From assembly GCF_014217335.1 (NCBI RefSeq), contig NZ_CP060092.1:3923501-3987500 (forward strand): a DNA stretch of 64,000 nt, read 5' to 3'. The position numbers were made by a program, and so were the translations under genes. Position 1 is the first letter of the stretch, and the number at the start of each line of letters is the position of its first letter. Source of the stretch: Teredinibacter purpureus. GTDB taxonomy: Bacteria > Pseudomonadota > Gammaproteobacteria > Pseudomonadales > Cellvibrionaceae. Positions 1-10,194 of the stretch are shown piece after piece. A model generated the notes under the pieces. It was given only the letters and a program-made list of their open reading frames with translations. It did not search any database and was not told the DNA's origin.

Positions 1-1272
1 CGTTGACTTTCTTGCCACACATATACGATTACAAATAGCGTCAACATAATCATCAATAAATATCAGATTAAAACCTATGTGACTATAATTGCTTTTTGAA
101 TCCTTGGGATGTAACTTTACCGAAAAATCAACCCCCAAATTATATAAGGTTTTTACAATACTCAAATTCACATGCGTATCCCTGGACTCGGAAAAATACA
201 CAACCTTTTTCCCCTTACCCTCATTGTCAACCGCCAAACAAGCCCTCGAAAAGATCCTATTCATCAATGCCTGGTCATATACAAATTTAGTGGTACCATA
301 CAGTTTATTCAAGCACTCCGCTGAAACTTGGCTCGTAGAATAGAAGATATCGCCAGCAACACCACCAGGAAACTTAATAGAATATTCAAGTCCATGGGGA
401 ATACAAATAAGCTCTTTATTGTTGTTGCTAGCAATACGACTCTCAAGCATCGCATACCGATCTTCTTTATTTCCTGTATATATGCTTTTGACAGAGCCTA
501 GTCTGCACAATTCGATAAAAGTAATTTCATAGATAGCTTTAACCACAATCCGCCTAGAAAAATACCAAACTATATCACCGACACACTGAAAACCAAGTAG
601 AATATAGGCATCTCTTAAAATTGAACAAAAATCACGCCCCACAATAAAGGGGATTTTCAAAACACTATAAAAAGAAGCATTTACACTCAATAGAGAAAAC
701 ATCGAACTCAAATTTGTCTTCTTATACGCTATATCCTCTGCGTATAAATCCATATTAAGATCATCTTTTATCAAACACATTTTGGAATAAGTTGCGCTAG
801 ACCTTACGATACAGGCCCTTGAAGACAAACTACCTCCCTTGCCGAGCATAAATGTTTGCCAAAGAACATACATAGGTGACAACAAGCCACCAATAACAAC
901 AACAGAAAATGCCATTATAGTCAAAATAACACTTCTAAAGTAATCTCGAATCAAAGTATAAACAGGTAACCCACGCCTACCCTTTAACATGCTTCGCCAC
1001 AACACGCCTTGTACGCCACCTACACCAGTTTTTATATCCTCGCAATGCAGATCATCCAGCTGAACACTCCACTCACACAATTTGAAGTAGAAAAGCAAAT
1101 AAATCTCATTGGCATAATCTGAACCAAGACCGAACCCAGCAACTTCTGACGAAAGTTTATCCGTTAGCGCGCTGATTTTTTTGCTGTCAAAGCCGACAAC
1201 CGTTGATTCACCATTAAATGAACATTCAATCTCACCGGTTCTAAGTAGCTTGACCTCTTTTTTTTTGTTCAT
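1..1272 (-). CDS. Putative polysaccharide-biosynthesis transferase, 3'-truncated by the window edge
   Basis: The frame stays open for 424 codons from an ATG at 1272 to base 1, so the C-terminus lies outside the window. The ATG shares its A with the upstream stop (TGATG), which implies translational coupling. A hydrophobic stretch near residues 115-140 may be a membrane segment or a buried helix. The C-terminal part (IPHGLEYSIKF, then VVYFSESRDTHVNLSIVK and VKLHPKD) has the feel of GT-B capsule or polysialyltransferase-like enzymes: a conserved HG near a sugar site and a Rossmann-like strand followed by LHPK. I cannot name a family with certainty. It is the eighth gene of the A+T-rich locus and probably transfers or modifies a sugar of the polymer made there. 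Confidence 0.6.
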   Translation of the reverse strand, partial: MNKKKEVKLLRTGEIECSFNGESTVVGFDSKKISALTDKLSSEVAGFGLGSDYANEIYLLFYFKLCEWSVQLDDLHCEDIKTGVGGVQGVLWRSMLKGRRGLPVYTLIRDYFRSVILTIMAFSVVVIGGLLSPMYVLWQTFMLGKGGSLSSRACIVRSSATYSKMCLIKDDLNMDLYAEDIAYKKTNLSSMFSLLSVNASFYSVLKIPFIVGRDFCSILRDAYILLGFQCVGDIVWYFSRRIVVKAIYEITFIELCRLGSVKSIYTGNKEDRYAMLESRIASNNNKELICIPHGLEYSIKFPGGVAGDIFYSTSQVSAECLNKLYGTTKFVYDQALMNRIFSRACLAVDNEGKGKKVVYFSESRDTHVNLSIVKTLYNLGVDFSVKLHPKDSKSNYSHIGFNLIFIDDYVDAICNRICVARKST

Positions 1273-2168
1273 CAAGCCAGTTTTTTCCTGATTTTATTGA
1301 TGTAACCAATATAGGGAAATAGAAGAAGTTTGAGAGGACTATAGACAAATTTGAAATACTTTCTCATAAACAACGTATTCACCTCGGGCGCCACAGCGTC
1401 ATCAATTGGAAACCCCTCACCAAAAACAGAGGTATCATCCCCGCTTTTGGATCCACGGTGCGTTCCCTCATCACCTATACCAATATTATTGATAAGGTTT
1501 TGCTTGGGGACCACATGCAACATTTTTTTTGATCGAAAATATAGATCGTATGAATACGCCCACGAATTTACCATTTTGGTTTTCATTAGGTTATGAATAC
1601 CCAGCACATGATTTTTTTCAGCAAAGGATAACTCGCGTAAGCCAATACTTTTCAAAACATCTTTTTGATAACCAAATTCAACATCAATTCCCCTAACCCT
1701 ATCCGCCCAACTCGCCCATCCCCAGCAGAAGAATTTACTAGAAAAAAAATGACTTTCTTTACCAAATTTTGACAATTCATTTCGTCCGGCTATCGAAGCG
1801 ACGGTTTTATCAGTTTTGTATTTTTCAAGCATTTTCTCGCAATATTCGAAAAAAAAAGGGGATGGAATACAATCATCCTCGAGAATAATTCCCCTATCAA
1901 CCTGGCTAAAAAACCATTGAATCCCCTTGCTTACAGCTAGCTTGCACCCTAGATTCTCTTCTGAGAACAAAGTGTGAACCTCACACCCCCAATCGATAGC
2001 ATTAAGAACTTCGTCCCGTATTTCAAATATGACTTCCTGCTCAGCAAGGCCTCTAGGACCATCAGAAGCCAAATATATAACCTCTGGCTTCACAGCTTTT
2101 AAAGCACCAACCAACCTAACAATAGAGTCTCGCCTATTGAAAAACAACAACAATACTGGAATATTCAT
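1272..2168 (-). CDS. Glycosyltransferase, GT2/HlpA-like nucleotide-diphospho-sugar transferase
   Basis: The 298-residue protein begins MNIPVLLLFFNRRDS, the usual start of small GT-A transferases annotated as HlpA-like or GNT-I-like. SDGPRG follows near residue 37 and the acidic metal-binding motif ILEDDCIPS near residue 95; WGWASW is typical of the acceptor half. The frame can be extended to a TTG at 2228, but the extra 20 residues match nothing in the family, while the ATG at 2168 has AAGG ten bases upstream, so I chose 2168. No membrane anchor is visible; it should act at the cytoplasmic face on an undecaprenyl-linked intermediate. The donor sugar cannot be predicted. Confidence 0.8.
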   Translation of the reverse strand: MNIPVLLLFFNRRDSIVRLVGALKAVKPEVIYLASDGPRGLAEQEVIFEIRDEVLNAIDWGCEVHTLFSEENLGCKLAVSKGIQWFFSQVDRGIILEDDCIPSPFFFEYCEKMLEKYKTDKTVASIAGRNELSKFGKESHFFSSKFFCWGWASWADRVRGIDVEFGYQKDVLKSIGLRELSFAEKNHVLGIHNLMKTKMVNSWAYSYDLYFRSKKMLHVVPKQNLINNIGIGDEGTHRGSKSGDDTSVFGEGFPIDDAVAPEVNTLFMRKYFKFVYSPLKLLLFPYIGYINKIRKKLA

Positions 2169-2224
2169 AGGATAATAACCTTGAGTGAAACAAGCACAAT
2201 CACTGCAGTCTGCATATAAATCGG

Positions 2225-3280
2225 TCAAAAAACATCTATAAACAAAAAATCTTTTAACACTCTGGACACAAAAACCAGATTAACCGTAACAAAAATAAAA
2301 TACGTCAGCACATTTAACACCTTATACCTCCCCACTTTACTCCGCTCACAAACAAAAGAAGTTACGATAAAAAACATAAAAACAACAAATGCATCAGCGA
2401 TCCTATCTACCCACAAAAAACCCGAGAAAAATGACGTAAGAAAAACCCCAAGAAGACAAACCTTAAGCGGCCCAGTCATTCTTTCAAAATCGCTAGTTTT
2501 GTAGATAACCACAGACAAAACGACAACATTAAACAAAAACCGAAAAGAATACCCTGACTCAAACTTAATATTATCAATATAATACGTATATCTGGACAGA
2601 AAAGAGAGCAACTTGATATATTCAAATATCTTTAAGATTATGAAGTCGGTCAGTCCAGTGTAATACAGAACAAAAGAGACAAAAAGAAAGCTATAACAAA
2701 CATACCTCTTTAACTGCAATTTCAACAAAGGCAAAGATAAAATGACCAGCAATATACTTTTATGGAAAAAAGGGGCTAGCGCAAAAACTAAAAAAGGAGC
2801 CACCTTCTTACCTCTATACAAAAGACTGTATCCATACAAAAAAACAGATATCGCCATACCAACCCGCAAAAATATAAAGTTAACAGAGAGACCATAGAAC
2901 GAAATATACGCAATCAACCCCAACGAGACATTAAGGCCTAGATTAACTAAAGCCAACCTTACCAACATGACATTAAACAAAGCAATAGATAAGAAATATA
3001 GTATGTGACTATCGAAAAAAAGCTTAATGAGCTTACCGAAAACCACAAAGCCCATCTCCTGCCCTATATATTGCATATCCAAAAGAGACGAGTTATACAA
3101 TTTAAATAAGTCAAAGTACTCTTTTGTATCTGGAACCAATATATTCCGATAACCAACGATAAAAACAAAAACAAAAACCACTAGAACCTGATAAAACCAC
3201 GTATCCCTTTTAGAAACCAACACTAAAAATGCCATCAAAAGCAAAAAAACTGCGTATAATAAAAATGATATGTCTTGCAA
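2225..3280 (-). CDS. EpsG-family membrane protein, probable O-unit polymerase (Wzy)
   Basis: A strongly hydrophobic protein of about 351 residues with roughly ten predicted membrane segments. An early motif, GYRNILVPDTKEYFDLF, is typical of EpsG-family polymerases. It sits between a flippase and glycosyltransferases, as expected for the Wzy of a Wzx/Wzy pathway, where it would join lipid-linked repeat units on the periplasmic side. The frame opens at a TTG at 3349, but GAGG lies five bases before another TTG at 3280, which starts the protein right at the first membrane helix; I prefer 3280. Wzy sequences diverge widely, so the assignment rests on topology, motif and context. Confidence 0.72.
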   Translation of the reverse strand: MQDISFLLYAVFLLLMAFLVLVSKRDTWFYQVLVVFVFVFIVGYRNILVPDTKEYFDLFKLYNSSLLDMQYIGQEMGFVVFGKLIKLFFDSHILYFLSIALFNVMLVRLALVNLGLNVSLGLIAYISFYGLSVNFIFLRVGMAISVFLYGYSLLYRGKKVAPFLVFALAPFFHKSILLVILSLPLLKLQLKRYVCYSFLFVSFVLYYTGLTDFIILKIFEYIKLLSFLSRYTYYIDNIKFESGYSFRFLFNVVVLSVVIYKTSDFERMTGPLKVCLLGVFLTSFFSGFLWVDRIADAFVVFMFFIVTSFVCERSKVGRYKVLNVLTYFIFVTVNLVFVSRVLKDFLFIDVF

Positions 3281-3329
3281 AAGAACCTCGAAAACACAAA
3301 GTGTATGCACAAGAAAATGTATATAGTTA

Positions 3330-4487
3330 TTACTGAATAAAGGAACCAAAAGACAATATCATCTTCCTTTTACTTAACGATTCTCGCGCTTCAGTCAACG
3401 CCCTATCCCCAACCTGCATATCAGACACTACCTCTATCGCCTCAACGAGCGCTCTACGATCAAGCGAAGTGCAATTAACACCAACTTTGTATTTATTAAT
3501 AAATGAAACTACCGAAGAATTTTTTGGCCCATGAAACAACACCTTTACGCTCGAAGCGATATATGCAGACACCTTCCCAGGAAACGAAGTTTCGACCACT
3601 TCAGCTTTTTTAGGAGAGAACCAATAAGGTACATAACCAATATCTGATACCGACAATTCGTCCAAAACCTCTTCCAATTCTACCTGACCTCGAAATTCAA
3701 TCCTTTTATCACGCAAGACGCCAAAACGAGGTAATCGACCAAAGTTAACAAGCTGAATATTTTTATTATTTACCTTGAAATCCATATATTTAAGCGCGGA
3801 AACAAAACTATTCCATTCACGCTTCGCGTATATTGATCCTGCAAATACAATTTTTATACTTTTTGATTTTTCAATGGATCGCCTCTCAATGACACCCCGC
3901 TGAAACTCATTACTATCAATTCCATTTCTAATAACAAACGTTTTATCTGCGTATTCAGAGCATAGCTTTGCTCCCATTCCCTCGTTGATAACGGAGATGT
4001 TTTCTGCCCCTTTCAATGTAAAATCAAATGATTTTTTAACCAAACGGTAGGTAAATGGGTCTAAGTTTAAATTCCCCTTTAAATAAACTGGTGAATCCCA
4101 AATCGTGACGTAAACGGGTATTTCAGTTTTGGCGAGCAGGCTCTCCGCAAGAAAAATTAATTCTGGACTTGATAGTACCACCCAAATTTTATCTACCTTC
4201 TCACAATTAATAACCTCAACTATAGTTCGAAATATCCTTTCCCTATAAATACACCTAAAAATCAATAAGAGTAGGCTTGACAAGATAGGTAAATGACTTT
4301 TAAAAACCCCATATTCATAACAACTAAAATTAAGCCATTTTTTTATTTTACCCAGCCTTGATCGCTTTACTACGGACAATCTTGCAATACTACCATCAGG
4401 TTGTTGAGAGCAAATATTTTCTAAGTAGATATCACCCACCCCTTTACTGCCCGCCGGTGTACTAGTTATTAACAACGTCTTTTGCAC
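3330..4487 (-). CDS. Glycosyltransferase, GT4-like
   Basis: The product of about 385 residues starts MQKTLLITSTPAGSKGVGD, a first beta strand and glycine loop typical of GT-B transferases. A second Rossmann-like core begins at IKIVFAGSIYAKREW and contains the late segment ETSFPGKVSAYIASS. The start is a GTG at 4487 with a perfect AAGGAG seven bases upstream (4495-4500). The longer reading from 4529 would lie 68 bases inside the flippase gene and has no ribosome site. The gene overlaps the flippase by 26 bases, so the two are probably co-translated. Donor and acceptor are unknown. Confidence 0.75.
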   Translation of the reverse strand: MQKTLLITSTPAGSKGVGDIYLENICSQQPDGSIARLSVVKRSRLGKIKKWLNFSCYEYGVFKSHLPILSSLLLLIFRCIYRERIFRTIVEVINCEKVDKIWVVLSSPELIFLAESLLAKTEIPVYVTIWDSPVYLKGNLNLDPFTYRLVKKSFDFTLKGAENISVINEGMGAKLCSEYADKTFVIRNGIDSNEFQRGVIERRSIEKSKSIKIVFAGSIYAKREWNSFVSALKYMDFKVNNKNIQLVNFGRLPRFGVLRDKRIEFRGQVELEEVLDELSVSDIGYVPYWFSPKKAEVVETSFPGKVSAYIASSVKVLFHGPKNSSVVSFINKYKVGVNCTSLDRRALVEAIEVVSDMQVGDRALTEARESLSKRKMILSFGSFIQ

Positions 4488-5766
4488 AAAAAAACTCCTT
4501 TGCAATTGAGTACAACGTAAAAGTTTCAATAATAAGAGTCCAAAACACCATTATATAAAACGGGTTCACCTCAATATCCATCCATAAAAAAATACAAATG
4601 GTGACTAAAACTGCGACCGCCTTGACAAGTAGATAACCCGCTACTTTCTTTATCTTACCCACTGCCGAAAGTATCGTCACATGAACATTTGTCCACATGA
4701 GCAATGAAAAGTAGAAGCTAGCTGACACAACAACACTTTGCTGAAAAGTTACTTCTGAGTTAAAAACGAAAGAGAGAACAGCACTACCGTACGAGCACCC
4801 TACAACGATGGTTAAAAATAGAACGCTAAGCACGTATTTCAACAGCTTCGAATATACCCCAATAGCCCAGGTATAACTTCCTTTTGAAACACTCTCTGTA
4901 ATAGCCGGAATCAACGGTAAACAGACCATGGAGACCAAGCCGCTTCCAAGTAAGATTATTTGATTTAGCGCAGCATATTGAGCAGCAAAATCCGTGCTAT
5001 AAAAACGACCGACAATCAGTACAGGCAATACATGCAAAATTAAATTTGCAACGGAACCGGCAAACAAAAAATTTTTACCGTCTGACAGTAACTTTTTTAC
5101 CTGCGGCTTAGATATCAAACTCGGATTGAGGTTAACATAACCTTCAACACAAATAAGTCTCAAAGCATTTATAAGTCTAAAGGCAACGATTGGCCCTAAA
5201 ATAATTAAAAGCAGATGGCTGACTAATGCTATATTTTCCCCATAAATAACAACAAACACTACACTAACTATTGAAGATAAAAATGAAAACGAATTAGTTA
5301 TATATTGCTTTTGCGATGCAAGAACGACAGCATCTGTTACGGTACAAAAGTTCTGCAAAACAAAAATAATTAAAATACAATAAAAACTGACGTTAACATC
5401 TATTGTCGAACTGACATTGGTAGACATAAAAATAGTATTAACATCTACCAACGCTAGCAATATTAGCGCACCTAGAAAAACTACTAAACTCACAAAAACT
5501 GCTATAATGAGAGCGCTTGAAAACCAACTACTTCGATCTTTCTTATAACGCAATGGCGATATAATAATGGTAATCGCTGGGCCAACACCGATACTTGACA
5601 GCATCAGCCACCCCATAACCCCCATCATCATTGAATATACAACAAAGCCCTCGGCACCCAACTGCTTGACAGCCAACGGCATTGCAAACAACTGTAATGC
5701 TAACGTTGACACTTTCGATAAGACTGAGGTGATAATCGAAAGCTTTATTTTTCGCTCTTTGGGCAT
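4462..5766 (-). CDS. wzx: Wzx-type polysaccharide flippase (MATE/MVF-like)
   Basis: The 434-residue integral membrane protein has about twelve hydrophobic segments. Its N-terminus (SIITSVLSKVSTLALQLFAMPLAV, then LGAEGFVVYSMMMG) is the common opening of Wzx/RfbX oligosaccharide flippases. Such proteins move undecaprenyl-diphosphate-linked repeat units across the inner membrane. The ATG at 5766 lacks a strong ribosome site. It is followed directly by glycosyltransferase and polymerase genes. The symbol reflects function by context and fold; sequence identity within the family is usually low. Confidence 0.82.
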   Translation of the reverse strand: MPKERKIKLSIITSVLSKVSTLALQLFAMPLAVKQLGAEGFVVYSMMMGVMGWLMLSSIGVGPAITIIISPLRYKKDRSSWFSSALIIAVFVSLVVFLGALILLALVDVNTIFMSTNVSSTIDVNVSFYCILIIFVLQNFCTVTDAVVLASQKQYITNSFSFLSSIVSVVFVVIYGENIALVSHLLLIILGPIVAFRLINALRLICVEGYVNLNPSLISKPQVKKLLSDGKNFLFAGSVANLILHVLPVLIVGRFYSTDFAAQYAALNQIILLGSGLVSMVCLPLIPAITESVSKGSYTWAIGVYSKLLKYVLSVLFLTIVVGCSYGSAVLSFVFNSEVTFQQSVVVSASFYFSLLMWTNVHVTILSAVGKIKKVAGYLLVKAVAVLVTICIFLWMDIEVNPFYIMVFWTLIIETFTLYSIAKEFFCAKDVVNN

Positions 5767-5904: not shown

Positions 5905-6636
5905 TCACTGCTGCATAGAGAGAACAACGCGAGCCACATCATCAGGAATATCCACAGCGATAGAACCACTCCCTACTTCGACCATGTTTACCTCATAACC
6001 AGACTCTAAAAATCGTAAAATCTCAACATCTTCAACCTCTTCAAGAGGTGTTTTTTTCTGCTGGCTTAAGAAAAACTCAAGATGCTCTCTCGAAAAAGCG
6101 TAAATACAAACCTGCTTTAAGCCAAACTTAAAATCCCCCTCTTTTGTCAATGGGATCCCAGATCGACTCATATACAATAGCTTTCCAGACTGATCACATA
6201 CCACTTTCGGAACAGTTAACGAACGGAACTCCCTTTCGTCTGAAATCTTGCACATAGCGTTAATAATCGCTCCATCACTATTAATATAAGATTCAATTAC
6301 ATTTTTAATATGTTCAGGAGAAACAAGTGGTTCGTCGCCTTGAACATTAACAATAAAATTGCAATTTAAAGTCCGATTAGCCTCTGCAAGCCTATCGGTT
6401 CCAGTGAGACAGCCGCTACTTGTTCTTATAACCGAACCACCGAACGTGTTGACCGCAGATTCAATTCGATCATCATCGGTTGCTACGAACACCTTTTCGC
6501 CCCCAACTGCTTCACAGCATCGCTCCCAAACATGCTGAATCATAGGTTTACCGCATATATCTACTAAAGGCTTACCTGGAAATCGACTCGACTCGAATCT
6601 AGCTGGAATAACTACCGCATAATTATCAACGTTCAT
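5905..6636 (-). CDS. kdsB: CMP-Kdo synthetase-like cytidylyltransferase
   Basis: The 243-residue protein carries the full KdsB signature: VVIPARFESSRFPGKPL at the CTP-binding N-terminus, CGKPMIQHVWERC, VFVATDDDRI and NVQGDEPLV. Length matches the family (about 245-255). The known reaction is CTP plus Kdo giving CMP-Kdo and diphosphate. The housekeeping kdsB of most gammaproteobacteria sits beside lpxK or murB; this copy lies in a polysaccharide operon and overlaps the HAD gene by four bases (ATGA), so it resembles capsule KpsU and may activate a different ulosonic acid. Substrate choice cannot be read from sequence alone. Confidence 0.85.
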   Translation of the reverse strand: MNVDNYAVVIPARFESSRFPGKPLVDICGKPMIQHVWERCCEAVGGEKVFVATDDDRIESAVNTFGGSVIRTSSGCLTGTDRLAEANRTLNCNFIVNVQGDEPLVSPEHIKNVIESYINSDGAIINAMCKISDEREFRSLTVPKVVCDQSGKLLYMSRSGIPLTKEGDFKFGLKQVCIYAFSREHLEFFLSQQKKTPLEEVEDVEILRFLESGYEVNMVEVGSGSIAVDIPDDVARVVLSMQQ

Positions 6637-7298
6637 ATTTCTTGTATTACCTCATCAAAAGAATCTATGACTCGATATCCTTGATCTTTACACAGACCTC
6701 TCATTTTTGATTCAACCCTAGAAAAAGGACTGTAAAAAATGAAATCAATTGCATTGGCTCTTGCAGCTTCTAGGTCTGAAATTGCATCACCGATCATTAC
6801 AGCTTTAGACTCTTTATGCATATCCAAAATGTTGGAGACATTAACTGATTTCAGTTCTGGGGAGCCCATAATTCCATCAAAATAGACATTTAACTGTCGA
6901 GCATTAAAAACTCTTCTCAACTCATCTTGTTCTGAACCACTAGCAACATATTTAACCGCATTACTTTTAGTCAGCAACTCTTTTACAAATGGCGCCAAAT
7001 TAGCTTTTAAGTATAACCTTTCACACTGATACGAATAAGATGCGAGAACTTCGCTTTTAAAGTCCTCAACTATCAAGCCTCTCAAATTTAGCAAGTGGCT
7101 TGCAAAATAGTCAACGTGATAAAATCTAGATTTCCCGAAGTTTTGACCAAAAAAAGAGGTGCATGTATCAATATCAGAATTCGTTATGCCGTACCCCCTT
7201 AAAGCTATACCCATAGCTTTAATTTTTAGGGCATTTGAGTCGAGCAGAACGCCATCACAATCAAATATAATTACATCAAAACAACTAAACCGGTGCAT
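6633..7298 (-). CDS. HAD-superfamily phosphatase of the polysaccharide locus
   Basis: A 221-residue HAD hydrolase with nucleophile motif FDCDGVLLDS (Asp13 and Asp15 from the chosen start), motif II at YVASGSEQDE, a lysine in SPELKSVN and the metal motif MIGDAISDLEAA. The helical cap between motifs I and II places it with subfamily I enzymes of the phosphoglycolate type, not with the capless KdsC group. The ATG at 7298 has AAGG eight bases upstream; the TTG at 7316 has no site. It overlaps the aldolase gene by 14 bases and the cytidylyltransferase by four. By position it would remove phosphate from the aldolase product before CMP activation, as KdsC does in Kdo synthesis. Confidence 0.8.
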   Translation of the reverse strand: MHRFSCFDVIIFDCDGVLLDSNALKIKAMGIALRGYGITNSDIDTCTSFFGQNFGKSRFYHVDYFASHLLNLRGLIVEDFKSEVLASYSYQCERLYLKANLAPFVKELLTKSNAVKYVASGSEQDELRRVFNARQLNVYFDGIMGSPELKSVNVSNILDMHKESKAVMIGDAISDLEAARANAIDFIFYSPFSRVESKMRGLCKDQGYRVIDSFDEVIQEI

Positions 7299-8904
7299 AG
7301 ATGGAGCCTTGCACAAGAGGATAGGTCGTTGGCGTTAATGCAATGAGCCTTTTTGATATTTCAAGACCATTCATCATAGAAAAGATTTCAAGCATCTCTA
7401 ATTGTCGAGAGTCGGCACTTTCATACCCATCAAACCCGGCGAGAAACACTCCTTTCGGGTTCATCGTTTCAACAACACTAAATGCATATGCTGCTGTAAT
7501 ATCAAAAGGAACAACACAGTATTCGTTTTTAACGGAAAAACAATTATGCTTAACTTCAAACCCATAATCGATTAATTGACAGCTGCCAGAAAAAAGTTCT
7601 AGTTCTGAATCCTTGAATCGGTGCTTTGGCAATATAACCGGCTTTTTGAGCGTATTGTATATACCACGCTCTGAAAGAAATTTATTGTTGTGGGATAGAC
7701 AATAATAATCAATATATTCTGCCAGCTCTTCAATCACATTTATCCCAATAACAATTGGCTTTTTGTTTCTAATATACGCTTTAATGTCCCTTAAATATCT
7801 TTGTAAACTTGAACCATTTGCTACAATTAAAACATCTCTTTCATGTGCAACACTGCACAACTCTGGCGAACCACTGACCGGCTTTCCCTCACCGGAGAAT
7901 GTCAATGCGGCTTTGTACACATCTCCATTGTAGGACGTTCTATTTTCCTGCTGACTAAGAAATTCTATCGCACCAACAATTTCATCCGTCCCAAAATGGC
8001 TATCAGAAAGCATGTTTTGTATGTAAGTAGGGTGAAGATTATTTTGAGCGCCTAAGAAATAAAGTAAATTGCTTCCCCAGCCACATTCTTTCTGCATCGG
8101 CTCGAAATGACGTATTGCCAACTCATATACTGGAGTTGTTACATAACTATCGCTCTCTTGACTAATAACAGCTAATAAATTTTCAGTCTGCGAATTACCT
8201 GCACCACGCCCCATACCCGTAACCGTAGCATCCAGCCACTTCACCCCTGCTGCTTTTGCGACCAAACAATTATCTAATGCTCTAGCCATGTTGTTGTGAG
8301 TATGGATACCTAAGTCACCAGACCAGCATTCACGCAATGCCGAGATTATTCGTTTAACCTCCCCTCCATCCATATTGCCAAGTGAATCAGCGAAATATAA
8401 GACATCCACCTGCCCCCAAGAAGCCACTATCCCAGCCTTTTCTGCCAACTCCGCTGAGGGTTTACCTCCGGCTTGCATCAAGTTATATCCAACAATATAA
8501 CCCTTGTCTTTCAAGCATTTCACTATCGCCTCTGATTTTTCCACTTCATCAAAGTGAGCTGCAACTCTAACAATAGACACATGACTGTCTTTAGAATCAA
8601 CAAATAAATCATTAACTGTATCGCCAATAGACTTAGGGGAGCCCATAATCGACTTAGCATTAACCATTACACCATAACTAGGCCCATTGGGTAATCGCAA
8701 ACGATTAATAAAATCTTCGGTTGTGTAAAAGAACGCACCGTGAAAACCTTTTTGAGGCAGCTCACGCAACCCTAATTCGACGTAATCTACTTTAGCTTTA
8801 GCCATGGCTTCAATGTATGCTTGAACAACGTCAGGATCAAAATCCCAAAGATTGTAATAACCACCATCACGCAGTGTGCAGTCTAAAATTTTAACTTCAT
8901 GCAT
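7285..8904 (-). CDS. DRE-TIM (HMGL-like) aldolase fused to a C-terminal MptE/DUF115-like domain
   Basis: Residues 1 to about 290 form a DRE-TIM barrel: ILDCTLRDGG at the N-terminus, metal ligands in GIHTHNNMARALDN (His201, His203) and GMGRGAGNSQTENLL (231-245), closest in style to DmpG-type 4-hydroxy-2-oxovalerate aldolases that handle pyruvate enolate. From about 355 a different domain begins: DVLIVANGSSLQRYL, then PIVIGINVIEEL and GVFLAGFDGY, resembling the Rossmann-like DUF115/MptE or GT42 sialyltransferase folds. The ATG at 8904 has AGGA upstream and is the first gene of its operon. I infer that it condenses pyruvate with a sugar aldehyde to give an ulosonic acid; the job of the second domain is unknown. 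Confidence 0.75.
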   Translation of the reverse strand: MHEVKILDCTLRDGGYYNLWDFDPDVVQAYIEAMAKAKVDYVELGLRELPQKGFHGAFFYTTEDFINRLRLPNGPSYGVMVNAKSIMGSPKSIGDTVNDLFVDSKDSHVSIVRVAAHFDEVEKSEAIVKCLKDKGYIVGYNLMQAGGKPSAELAEKAGIVASWGQVDVLYFADSLGNMDGGEVKRIISALRECWSGDLGIHTHNNMARALDNCLVAKAAGVKWLDATVTGMGRGAGNSQTENLLAVISQESDSYVTTPVYELAIRHFEPMQKECGWGSNLLYFLGAQNNLHPTYIQNMLSDSHFGTDEIVGAIEFLSQQENRTSYNGDVYKAALTFSGEGKPVSGSPELCSVAHERDVLIVANGSSLQRYLRDIKAYIRNKKPIVIGINVIEELAEYIDYYCLSHNNKFLSERGIYNTLKKPVILPKHRFKDSELELFSGSCQLIDYGFEVKHNCFSVKNEYCVVPFDITAAYAFSVVETMNPKGVFLAGFDGYESADSRQLEMLEIFSMMNGLEISKRLIALTPTTYPLVQGSIYAPV

Positions 8905-9144: not shown

Positions 9145-10194
9145 TCACTGACCTCGGAAATACCGAACAAACACAATCAAAAACGAAAACATCCCGCCCA
9201 ACAAAACACCAAGTACACAGATTAATGCTCGTTTTGGCTTTGATTTTATTTCAGCTACTTTTGCTGGACTTAACACTTTAAATACGTACTCATCACTGAC
9301 TTCGGCCAGCATTAACGTTTTAGTCTGCTCTTCAACTAATTGGTAAAAAATGGATTGCATACCTGCAATATTTGTTTCCTGAATTTTTTTCTTTAGGTAT
9401 TCGATGCTTTTAGAAGCCTCGTCTTTGTCATGCCTTTGAATATGAGCATTAATGGTAACAACTAAGATGTCAACCCATGCTTTAGCCGTATATGGAGAAT
9501 AGTGCTCAACGGACAAGTTTACTAAACCCGTTTTTTCATCTTGAGAAATACTAATGCGGTCTCTAAGCTTTTCATAGAGCTTCCAACTGCTTGGCTCGGC
9601 TGCTTCCCCTTTACTCGGGTCAAATTCCCTTACCCAGCTTTTGTTTACACTGTCATAAATATCACTATCATAAGTTAAGGTGTTAGTTGAACGGTTCCAG
9701 CCGTTGGCAGCATAGACCGCAACTTCAATATTATTGTCTCGGATAAACCCATCGAGGAATCCCCAAGTCTTAATTATTTCAATAGCAATAGTCGCTTTAT
9801 CACTTACACCGCCCCCACCTAGATTAATTCCAGCTAATGAGGCCAGGCCACCAAATTGCTTAGCCATAACAGCTAAACCACCGCTAGCTCCCTGCTCAGC
9901 CGGCACTAGCAATACTTCCGATTTATAAACATTGGGCAATGAAAGCGCATAAAACACAGACGCAACAGTAAAAGCAAAAGTTGTAGCAATAATAATCCAC
10001 TTGCCCAGCCAAATAACGTTCCACAGCTCCCGCAAATCGATCTCGTCGGCATTCACCTGCGCCTGATAACTAAGCTGCTCACTAGGTTTTAGAATGGTCG
10101 CTGCAGTAACAGTGCCTAACTGCCGCTCTATCCGATCGAGTTGTTTTTCAAAATTCGCGTCCACCCCTGAATCTATAGGTATTTTTTTGTCCAT
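9145..10194 (-). CDS. wzz: Wzz-type polysaccharide chain-length determinant
   Basis: The 349-residue inner-membrane protein has the Wzz topology: a cytoplasmic N-terminus, the motif IDLRELWNVIWLGKWIII leading into the first membrane helix (about 65-88), PNVYKSEVLLVPAE just after it, a long periplasmic domain with coiled helix (EYLKKKIQETNIAGMQ) and a C-terminal helix preceded by the proline-rich AKVAEIKSKPKRALI. Such proteins set the modal length of the polymer made by Wzy. In Pseudomonas aeruginosa wzz also lies close to ihfB at the edge of the O-antigen cluster. It is separated from the biosynthetic operon by 240 bases, so it likely has its own promoter. Confidence 0.9.
   Translation of the reverse strand: MDKKIPIDSGVDANFEKQLDRIERQLGTVTAATILKPSEQLSYQAQVNADEIDLRELWNVIWLGKWIIIATTFAFTVASVFYALSLPNVYKSEVLLVPAEQGASGGLAVMAKQFGGLASLAGINLGGGGVSDKATIAIEIIKTWGFLDGFIRDNNIEVAVYAANGWNRSTNTLTYDSDIYDSVNKSWVREFDPSKGEAAEPSSWKLYEKLRDRISISQDEKTGLVNLSVEHYSPYTAKAWVDILVVTINAHIQRHDKDEASKSIEYLKKKIQETNIAGMQSIFYQLVEEQTKTLMLAEVSDEYVFKVLSPAKVAEIKSKPKRALICVLGVLLGGMFSFLIVFVRYFRGQ

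Follow-up and report, generated by a model that had tools for sequence, protein, structure and literature searches.

A recurrent gene set in Teredinibacter purpureus that may form a pyruvate-aldolase route to a CMP-activated 3-deoxy-2-ulosonic acid

Results and discussion

Three overlapping genes and their products

We studied a 64,000-nucleotide stretch of the Teredinibacter purpureus genome (contig NZ_CP060092.1, positions 3,923,501 to 3,987,500; hereafter the window), in which three overlapping genes on the minus strand encode an aldolase, a HAD phosphatase and a KdsB-like cytidylyltransferase. Their open reading frames (ORFs) take up exactly 5905-8904 and are transcribed in that order. We consider that this trio is a pyruvate-aldolase route to a cytidine monophosphate (CMP)-activated 3-deoxy-2-ulosonic acid for a surface polysaccharide, with a probability of roughly 60%.

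The aldolase (7285..8904, 539 aa) consists of a DRE-TIM barrel and a C-terminal domain, and it matches the HMGL-like family PF00682 with 95.1 bits (cut-off 29). The HAD-superfamily phosphatase (6633..7316, 227 aa when read from TTG) reaches 43.8 bits with PF13419, HAD_2 (cut-off 23.8), and the cytidylyltransferase (5905..6636, 243 aa) 155.7 bits with PF02348, CTP_transf_3 (cut-off 22.6). The first two genes overlap by 14 nt if the HAD gene starts at its in-frame ATG and by 32 nt if it starts at the TTG, while the HAD stop and the start of the KdsB-like gene share the letters ATGA. Thus, the ORFs, overlaps and families described in the initial annotation, which was made from the letters alone, were confirmed.

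The aldolase has a pyruvate aldolase-like site outside the DmpG family

The barrel spans residues 1 to about 330 (PF00682), and its nearest solved structures are 3dxi, then 1nvm, 8ih7 and 4lrs. The first of these is BVU_2661, a putative aldolase of Bacteroides vulgatus, of which the N-terminal domain alone was solved under a title that gives no function. Besides the Pfam match, an HxH metal site at 201/203 and the RD pair place the protein in the DRE-TIM metallolyase superfamily. Its nearest named enzymes are 4-hydroxy-2-oxovalerate aldolases; the model for these, TIGR03217, gives 108.5 bits, far under its cut-off of 286. In a list of 120 relatives we met just three names, "aldolase catalytic domain-containing protein", "pyruvate carboxyltransferase" and "4-hydroxy 2-oxovalerate aldolase"; the remaining entries are bare contig or cluster notes.

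We aligned 83 relatives with 16 controls, which are paralogues from the same order, taken as DmpG-type by their appearance and with no family-model check. Residues R12, D13, E43, H201, H203, N205 and N237 are kept in 82 or 83 of the 83 relatives and in all controls, and the first six match residues of DmpG. This part of the DmpG-like active site proposed earlier therefore stands. The same cannot be said of H21 of 1nvm, which we take to be the catalytic histidine of DmpG: it aligns with Tyr16 of the window aldolase, and the position is Tyr in 82/83 relatives and His in 15/16 controls. The earlier description also left out the C-terminal domain.

Two arginines, R47 (81/83 relatives) and R233 (82/83), occupy positions where the controls have Gly and Ala, respectively (15/16 each), which makes an anionic acceptor likely. 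W276 also differs from the DmpG-type controls. The enzyme thus shares with DmpG the barrel, the R-D pair, the HxH metal site and the Asn, as well as, probably, pyruvate enolate chemistry, but departs from it in the catalytic histidine, in R47, R233 and W276, and in a C-terminal domain of another kind. We found no acylating aldehyde dehydrogenase, the partner of DmpG, among the 15 locus proteins scanned (window and L005). Judged by these residues, the metal and enolate site appears to be that of a pyruvate aldolase, yet the protein lies outside the DmpG family.

The absence of the catalytic histidine, together with the diversity of the superfamily and with fold matches to homocitrate synthase, isopropylmalate synthase and HMG-CoA lyase, could also mean that the enzyme carries out another reaction of the superfamily, a Claisen-type condensation or a lyase reaction, and that the CMP-transferase activates a different acid. 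We find this very unlikely, as the best scores are to pyruvate aldolases and its association with ulosonate-type CMP-transferases (see below) suggests a 2-keto acid product.

The HAD phosphatase and the order of steps

The second protein shows the sequences DCDG, SGS and GDAISD, which we take to be the HAD motifs, and passes the NCBIfam HAD-IA model (26.7 bits, cut-off 23.3). Its similarity to the models of beta-phosphoglucomutase and of phosphoglycolate phosphatase is alike weak and below the cut-offs. No model named KdsC appeared among its NCBIfam matches at E 0.001, although the presence of such a model in the library was unchecked.

These weak similarities leave room for the same pathway in another order, with the HAD enzyme acting first to free the aldehyde, or to isomerise its phosphate, and the aldolase taking the unphosphorylated aldehyde as DmpG does. 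DmpG-type enzymes indeed use free short aldehydes. We nevertheless regard this order as unlikely, since the conserved R47 and R233 would fit an anionic acceptor.

The cytidylyltransferase and the question of Kdo

The third protein matches NF009905 with 297.9 bits (cut-off 255) and also passes the KdsB model TIGR00466 (164.4 bits vs 155.2). Its best solved relative is the CMP-3-deoxy-manno-octulosonate (CMP-Kdo) synthetase 1gq9 (8.1e-47), presumably KpsU. Both results favour a simple alternative, in which the trio is a second route to CMP-Kdo that is independent of phosphoenolpyruvate (PEP), starts from pyruvate and arabinose 5-phosphate, and supplies Kdo for the repeat unit. In addition, Pseudoalteromonas has close relatives of the aldolase, and Kdo is found in some polysaccharides of this genus, according to the accessible part of PMC3210612.

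Several observations make this alternative quite unlikely. In a tree of 56 trio KdsBs and 30 canonical KdsBs, all trio proteins fall on one side of a branch with SH-aLRT (approximate likelihood-ratio test) support of 99.6; the canonical set of this tree is gammaproteobacterial only, and the copies from the trio-bearing genomes, which span other phyla, are not in it. All 30 canonical proteins share H189, G191 and Q219 (numbered as in row L150). At these positions the trio enzymes have Q (51/56), C (49/56) and I (50/56), as does the window protein, whereas 1gq9 keeps H, G and Q in the alignment. Other KdsB-type copies in the same genomes, not belonging to the set, mostly keep them as well: H in 19, G in 20 and Q in 17 of 20. 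The exceptions within the set are A, H, Y (L014, L019, L022), A, H, H (L021) and H, S, L (the adjacent copy in L061). The QxC...EILR signature could serve to separate the trio cytidylyltransferase from canonical KdsB.

Presumably, His181 and Gln211 of E. coli KdsB touch Kdo. Counted along the chain, positions 189, 191 and 219 fall in the C-terminal domain of KdsB. According to the accessible part of PMC3149649, which names no contact residue, this domain binds Kdo.

The distribution of KdsA argues in the same direction. The T. purpureus genome carries a canonical KdsA (382.4 bits) and a canonical KdsB besides the trio; the only protein matching KdsA is encoded at 2502641 of the contig, outside the trio's locus, the window starting at 3923501. 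The trio is therefore no replacement for KdsA in this cell, and the initial proposal that it takes the place of the PEP-dependent synthase is not supported in that form. KdsA was over its cut-off in 21 of the 25 aldolase-bearing genomes tested. The other four are Rossellomorea (L035), two Prochlorococcus (L058, L059) and a Rikenellaceae metagenome-assembled genome (L086). The Prochlorococcus and Rikenellaceae genomes were assembled from single cells or metagenomes and could lack part of the sequence. Rossellomorea and both Prochlorococcus genomes carry the trio, while L086 has a NeuA-type transferase and no HAD match.

Since the KdsB-like enzyme has lost residues that are invariant in canonical KdsB, a pathway that runs alongside Kdo synthesis and yields a different sugar acid seems likelier than a replacement of it, and the acid made by the trio is probably not Kdo. 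The logic of the KdsA-KdsC-KdsB pathway would be the same (an ulosonate phosphate is made, dephosphorylated and CMP-activated) and the third enzymes are homologous. In contrast, the first enzyme of the trio is unrelated and probably pyruvate-dependent, and the trio KdsB belongs to another clade with changed residues.

In Bacillus sp. L068 (4285-12332), a Gram-positive, Kdo-pathway-like genes are found in the form of a kdsA-kdsB pair about 5 kb from the trio. As both are present, this one locus may make two acids. The pair speaks against Kdo as the trio product, though the Kdo residues are missing from its KdsB (F, G, S) too, which is the one non-set copy without the His.

The K18 locus of V. 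parahaemolyticus has two kdsB copies with 45.1% identity, according to the part of PMC7829505 that was accessible. One of them could be of the trio type, which would place such an enzyme in a strain of known serotype.

The gene set recurs across phyla

A genome scan gave at least 580 relatives of the aldolase, and the loci of the best 80 were kept. The C-terminal domain of the aldolase is present in 74 of them, and among these a CMP-transferase lies within 3.5 kb in 67, on the same strand in 66 and, measured between stop-to-stop frames, within 50 bp in 53. A HAD gene is found within 3.5 kb in 50/74 and both partners in 48/74. For comparison, the remaining 835 kb of the same loci gave 11 CMP-transferase matches, whereas in the 501 kb near the aldolase 67 loci have one. 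The search for the same three genes, which the initial annotation recommended, thus gave a positive answer, and its worry that their homologues might rarely occur together can be laid aside.

None of the six loci without the C-terminal domain has a CMP-transferase near, one of them (L064) being cut by a contig end. Short aldolases of this kind (L072, L076, L077, L081, L084, L098-L101) have no CMP-transferase near, with HAD matches beside L072, L076 and L077, and we treat them as having another function.

We also examined 293 genomes of the same order, sampled separately, ten of which, our own included, have a full-length aldolase. A CMP-transferase lies within 1.5 kb in nine of these, and in the tenth both partners lie at a greater distance; the corresponding count for the DmpG-type paralogues of the sample is 0/16. 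On these numbers, the grouping is more than chance. Neither of the two congeners within the sample has the full-length gene, which makes the locus accessory.

The set ranges over Pseudomonadota (SAR11 included), Bacteroidota, Campylobacterota, Bacillota and cyanobacteria. An annotated Leisingera plasmid carries the aldolase, a 3-deoxy-manno-octulosonate cytidylyltransferase and a HAD hydrolase, together with an ABC transporter and glycosyltransferases. Among plasmid records 232 had a match, with at least 80% of the query covered in three. Phage records contained no trio-type aldolase, the sole match being annotated as a 4-hydroxy-2-oxovalerate aldolase, and E. coli gave no DNA match to the Brenneria set.

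To describe the neighbours, Pfam was run on 128 proteins from 43 of 58 eligible loci, and the 25 commonest of the 114 families (3 to 8 members each) were examined. The commonest are sugar-nucleotide dehydratases, glycosyltransferases, Wzx, Wzy and radical SAM proteins. The idea that the set lies in polysaccharide loci is thus supported at the level of the pooled neighbour families. No sugar-phosphate isomerase was present among these 25 families, which hints that the aldehyde may be an ordinary metabolite.

Some loci depart from the usual arrangement. A variant set (L014 11590-15788, L019 11609-14961, L021 11394-15004 and, in part, L025 and L036) joins the aldolase with an HpcH/HpaI-type aldolase (PF03328 in L025), an LdpA-like ferredoxin protein (Pfam in L014), another HAD protein and a KdsB with a third signature, so that two aldolase types share one locus. 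The aldolases of L053, L055, L079, L029 and L038 have no CMP-transferase near at E 1e-5 (an ORF of the NeuA cluster is near in L038); the gene directly after them resembles that of a B12-type radical SAM protein. Symbiopectobacterium, a symbiont of insects, has its aldolase ORF broken into four pieces (L067 9956-11581), and the adjoining HAD and NeuA-type genes are open.

Two kinds of CMP-transferase accompany the aldolase

According to single-query searches, the partner is of the KdsB type only in 46/80 loci, of the NeuA type only in 19/80, of both types in 2/80 and of neither in 13/80. One NeuA-type protein was checked with Pfam and does match PF02348 (49.0 bits, cut-off 22.6). Mapped on the aldolase tree, the NeuA label changes eight times, and at least five of these changes are forced by starred branches; L014, L019, L021, L022, L025, L036 and L089-L097 were labelled by hand, five cut or broken rows were omitted, and long branches leave parts of this tree unsure. 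The transferase is thus swapped for an unlike type while the aldolase stays, which argues indirectly, but strongly, that CMP activation is part of the pathway.

The NeuA type raises the question of whether the product is a nine-carbon, sialic-acid-like acid, with the aldolase acting in place of a NeuB-type synthase on a hexose or hexosamine phosphate. A Pfam GT29 sialyltransferase adjoins the set in L034 (31.6 bits, cut-off 23), with relatives in L082 and L085. CMP activation is shared with the sialic acid pathway (NeuB-NeuA with GT29 or GT42 transferases), and some relatives also have its NeuA-type enzymes or a GT29 protein beside the set. On the other hand, the KdsB type is the commoner partner, and no hexosamine-specific enzyme, general sugar-nucleotide dehydratases aside, occurs among the 25 commonest neighbour families. 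No NeuB-type synthase was found among the 15 locus genes scanned. All in all, we think a nine-carbon product improbable.

In four Marinobacter loci (L020, L024, L030, L047) the set adjoins a weakly Kdo-kinase-like protein (PF06293 20.9 bits in L024, just under the cut-off of 21.3). L024 also has a 425-aa protein that looks sialyltransferase-like by eye and has no Pfam match.

The trio lies in a Wzx/Wzy-type polysaccharide locus

In the window, the trio sits between genes for a Wzz chain-length determinant, which is upstream and in the same direction (9145..10194, minus strand, as are all genes given here with positions; PF02706 53.5 bits), and a Wzx-type flippase (4462..5766, PF01943 42.7 bits). 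Further on lie a probable glycosyltransferase with weak NCBIfam matches below cut-off and no Pfam match (3330..4529), an EpsG-family polymerase in the role of Wzy (2225..3349, PF14897 87.9 bits) and an ORF without a Pfam or NCBIfam family, for which a glycosyltransferase is a guess from its place alone (1272..2228). At 1..1275 there is the gene of a 482-aa protein that matches no family and has a GT-B-like fold; its 3' end is left of the window, and it is whole in L005 (17827-19275).

Beyond this protein follow genes of the UDP-N-acetylfucosamine (UDP-FucNAc) type, and then a glycosyltransferase, a cupin and a UDP-glucose dehydrogenase. The UDP-FucNAc-type products are an FnlA-like protein (724.8 bits, just under the cut-off of 730), a WbcJ-type reductase (558.2 bits, cut-off 500) and a WecB-type epimerase (226.1 bits, cut-off 210.15). 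The Wzz, flippase, polymerase, glycosyltransferase and UDP-FucNAc-type genes around the trio allow us to classify the locus, from gene content, as a Wzx/Wzy-type polysaccharide locus.

The 482-aa GT-B-like protein is a candidate transferase for the CMP-sugar. In its AlphaFold model (mean confidence score, pLDDT, 91.5), the Z list ties UDP-GlcNAc 2-epimerases (14.2) with the polysialyltransferase 5wc6 (13.8; root-mean-square deviation 4.4, 270 residues aligned), and Foldseek puts a glucosyltransferase first (4.5e-4) and WaaA 2xci third (1.6e-3). A homologue lies directly beside the set in 2/80 loci (L035, L040) and in 1/16 further stretches (L119).

Proposed pathway

In the proposed pathway, the metal-dependent aldolase would make the enolate of pyruvate and add it to a phosphorylated aldehyde. 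The HAD enzyme would then take off the phosphate, and the KdsB-like enzyme would link the C2 hydroxyl of the acid to CMP. Finally, a glycosyltransferase of the locus, for which the 482-aa protein is the candidate, would put the acid into the repeat unit. We infer from sequence comparisons the pyruvate donor, the phosphorylated acceptor, the direction, the order of steps and the role of the transferase. The sequence of pyruvate aldolase, phosphatase and CMP activation put forward in the initial annotation seems to us the best explanation, given that the set recurs and the aldolase is tied to either type of CMP-transferase.

Several points weigh against this pathway. The HAD and HMGL families are broad. 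With the DmpG histidine replaced by Tyr16, the mechanism must differ from that of DmpG. R233 is present in 9/9 short aldolases without the set, and is therefore not tied to it, while R47 is not kept there. The KdsB-like enzyme passes the KdsB cut-off, as described above. Our search found no HAD gene within 3.5 kb in 24/74 loci and no CMP-transferase in 7/74; of these seven, L052 is truncated at the end of its contig, and clustering assigns a NeuA-type ORF to L025 and L038. Lastly, the pathway leaves the C-terminal domain of the aldolase unexplained.

As to the product, we tentatively suggest, at somewhat less than even odds, one CMP-3-deoxy-ulosonic acid, shared across phyla, which differs from Kdo and from any known nonulosonic acid and is fed to dedicated transferases. 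It could be a C6 or C7 acid made from glyceraldehyde 3-phosphate or erythrose 4-phosphate. A 3-deoxy-threo-hexulosonic acid reportedly occurs in Vibrio parahaemolyticus O7/O12, though the term "hexulosonic acid" is absent from the papers checked for it.

We also considered 3-deoxy-L-glycero-pentulosonic acid, which is said to occur in Klebsiella K38, and set it aside. The words aldolase, ulosonic and cytidylyltransferase are absent from the accessible part of PMC4616057.

To our knowledge, the CMP-activated ulosonic acids known so far are all made by PEP-dependent synthases. If our proposal is true, there is a second, unrelated way to this class of sugars in marine SAR11, Prochlorococcus and Gram-positives, the acid sugar becomes predictable from genomes, and a new aldolase is at hand for synthesis. 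The initial annotation knew of no characterised pathway with this set. Our searches of open-access literature brought up no description of it, which is weak evidence of novelty, and no known non-sugar substrate of the aldolase.

The C-terminal domain of the aldolase

The C-terminal domain comprises about 185 residues (about 355-539) and shows a weak kinship to MptE-like proteins (PF01973). This family matches 9 of the 25 members scanned at E 0.01, the window aldolase not being one of them. The best PDB profile matches are weak: the sialyltransferase 2drj (E 0.22) and MptE 8sd5 (E 0.4). A profile of the domain found no match at E 1 in five PF01973-bearing loci.

A sialyltransferase role of the domain was considered and not retained, the sequence hints being weak. 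The full-length structural comparison is filled by matches to the barrel and so says nothing on this domain. A search with the GT42 family (PF06002) gave no match anywhere, controls included, and is therefore uninformative.

Among 7,991 ORFs, separate ones near the set match the domain profile weakly (L007 14432-15307, E 3.7e-4; L068 4285-5076, E 0.0076), so the domain may also exist as a stand-alone protein. Elsewhere in the T. purpureus genome (4016379-4026532 of the same contig; L003, L136, L141), two PF01973 proteins, in frames of 709 and 759 aa, lie near another cytidylyltransferase; our guess is that this is a flagellin glycosylation region.

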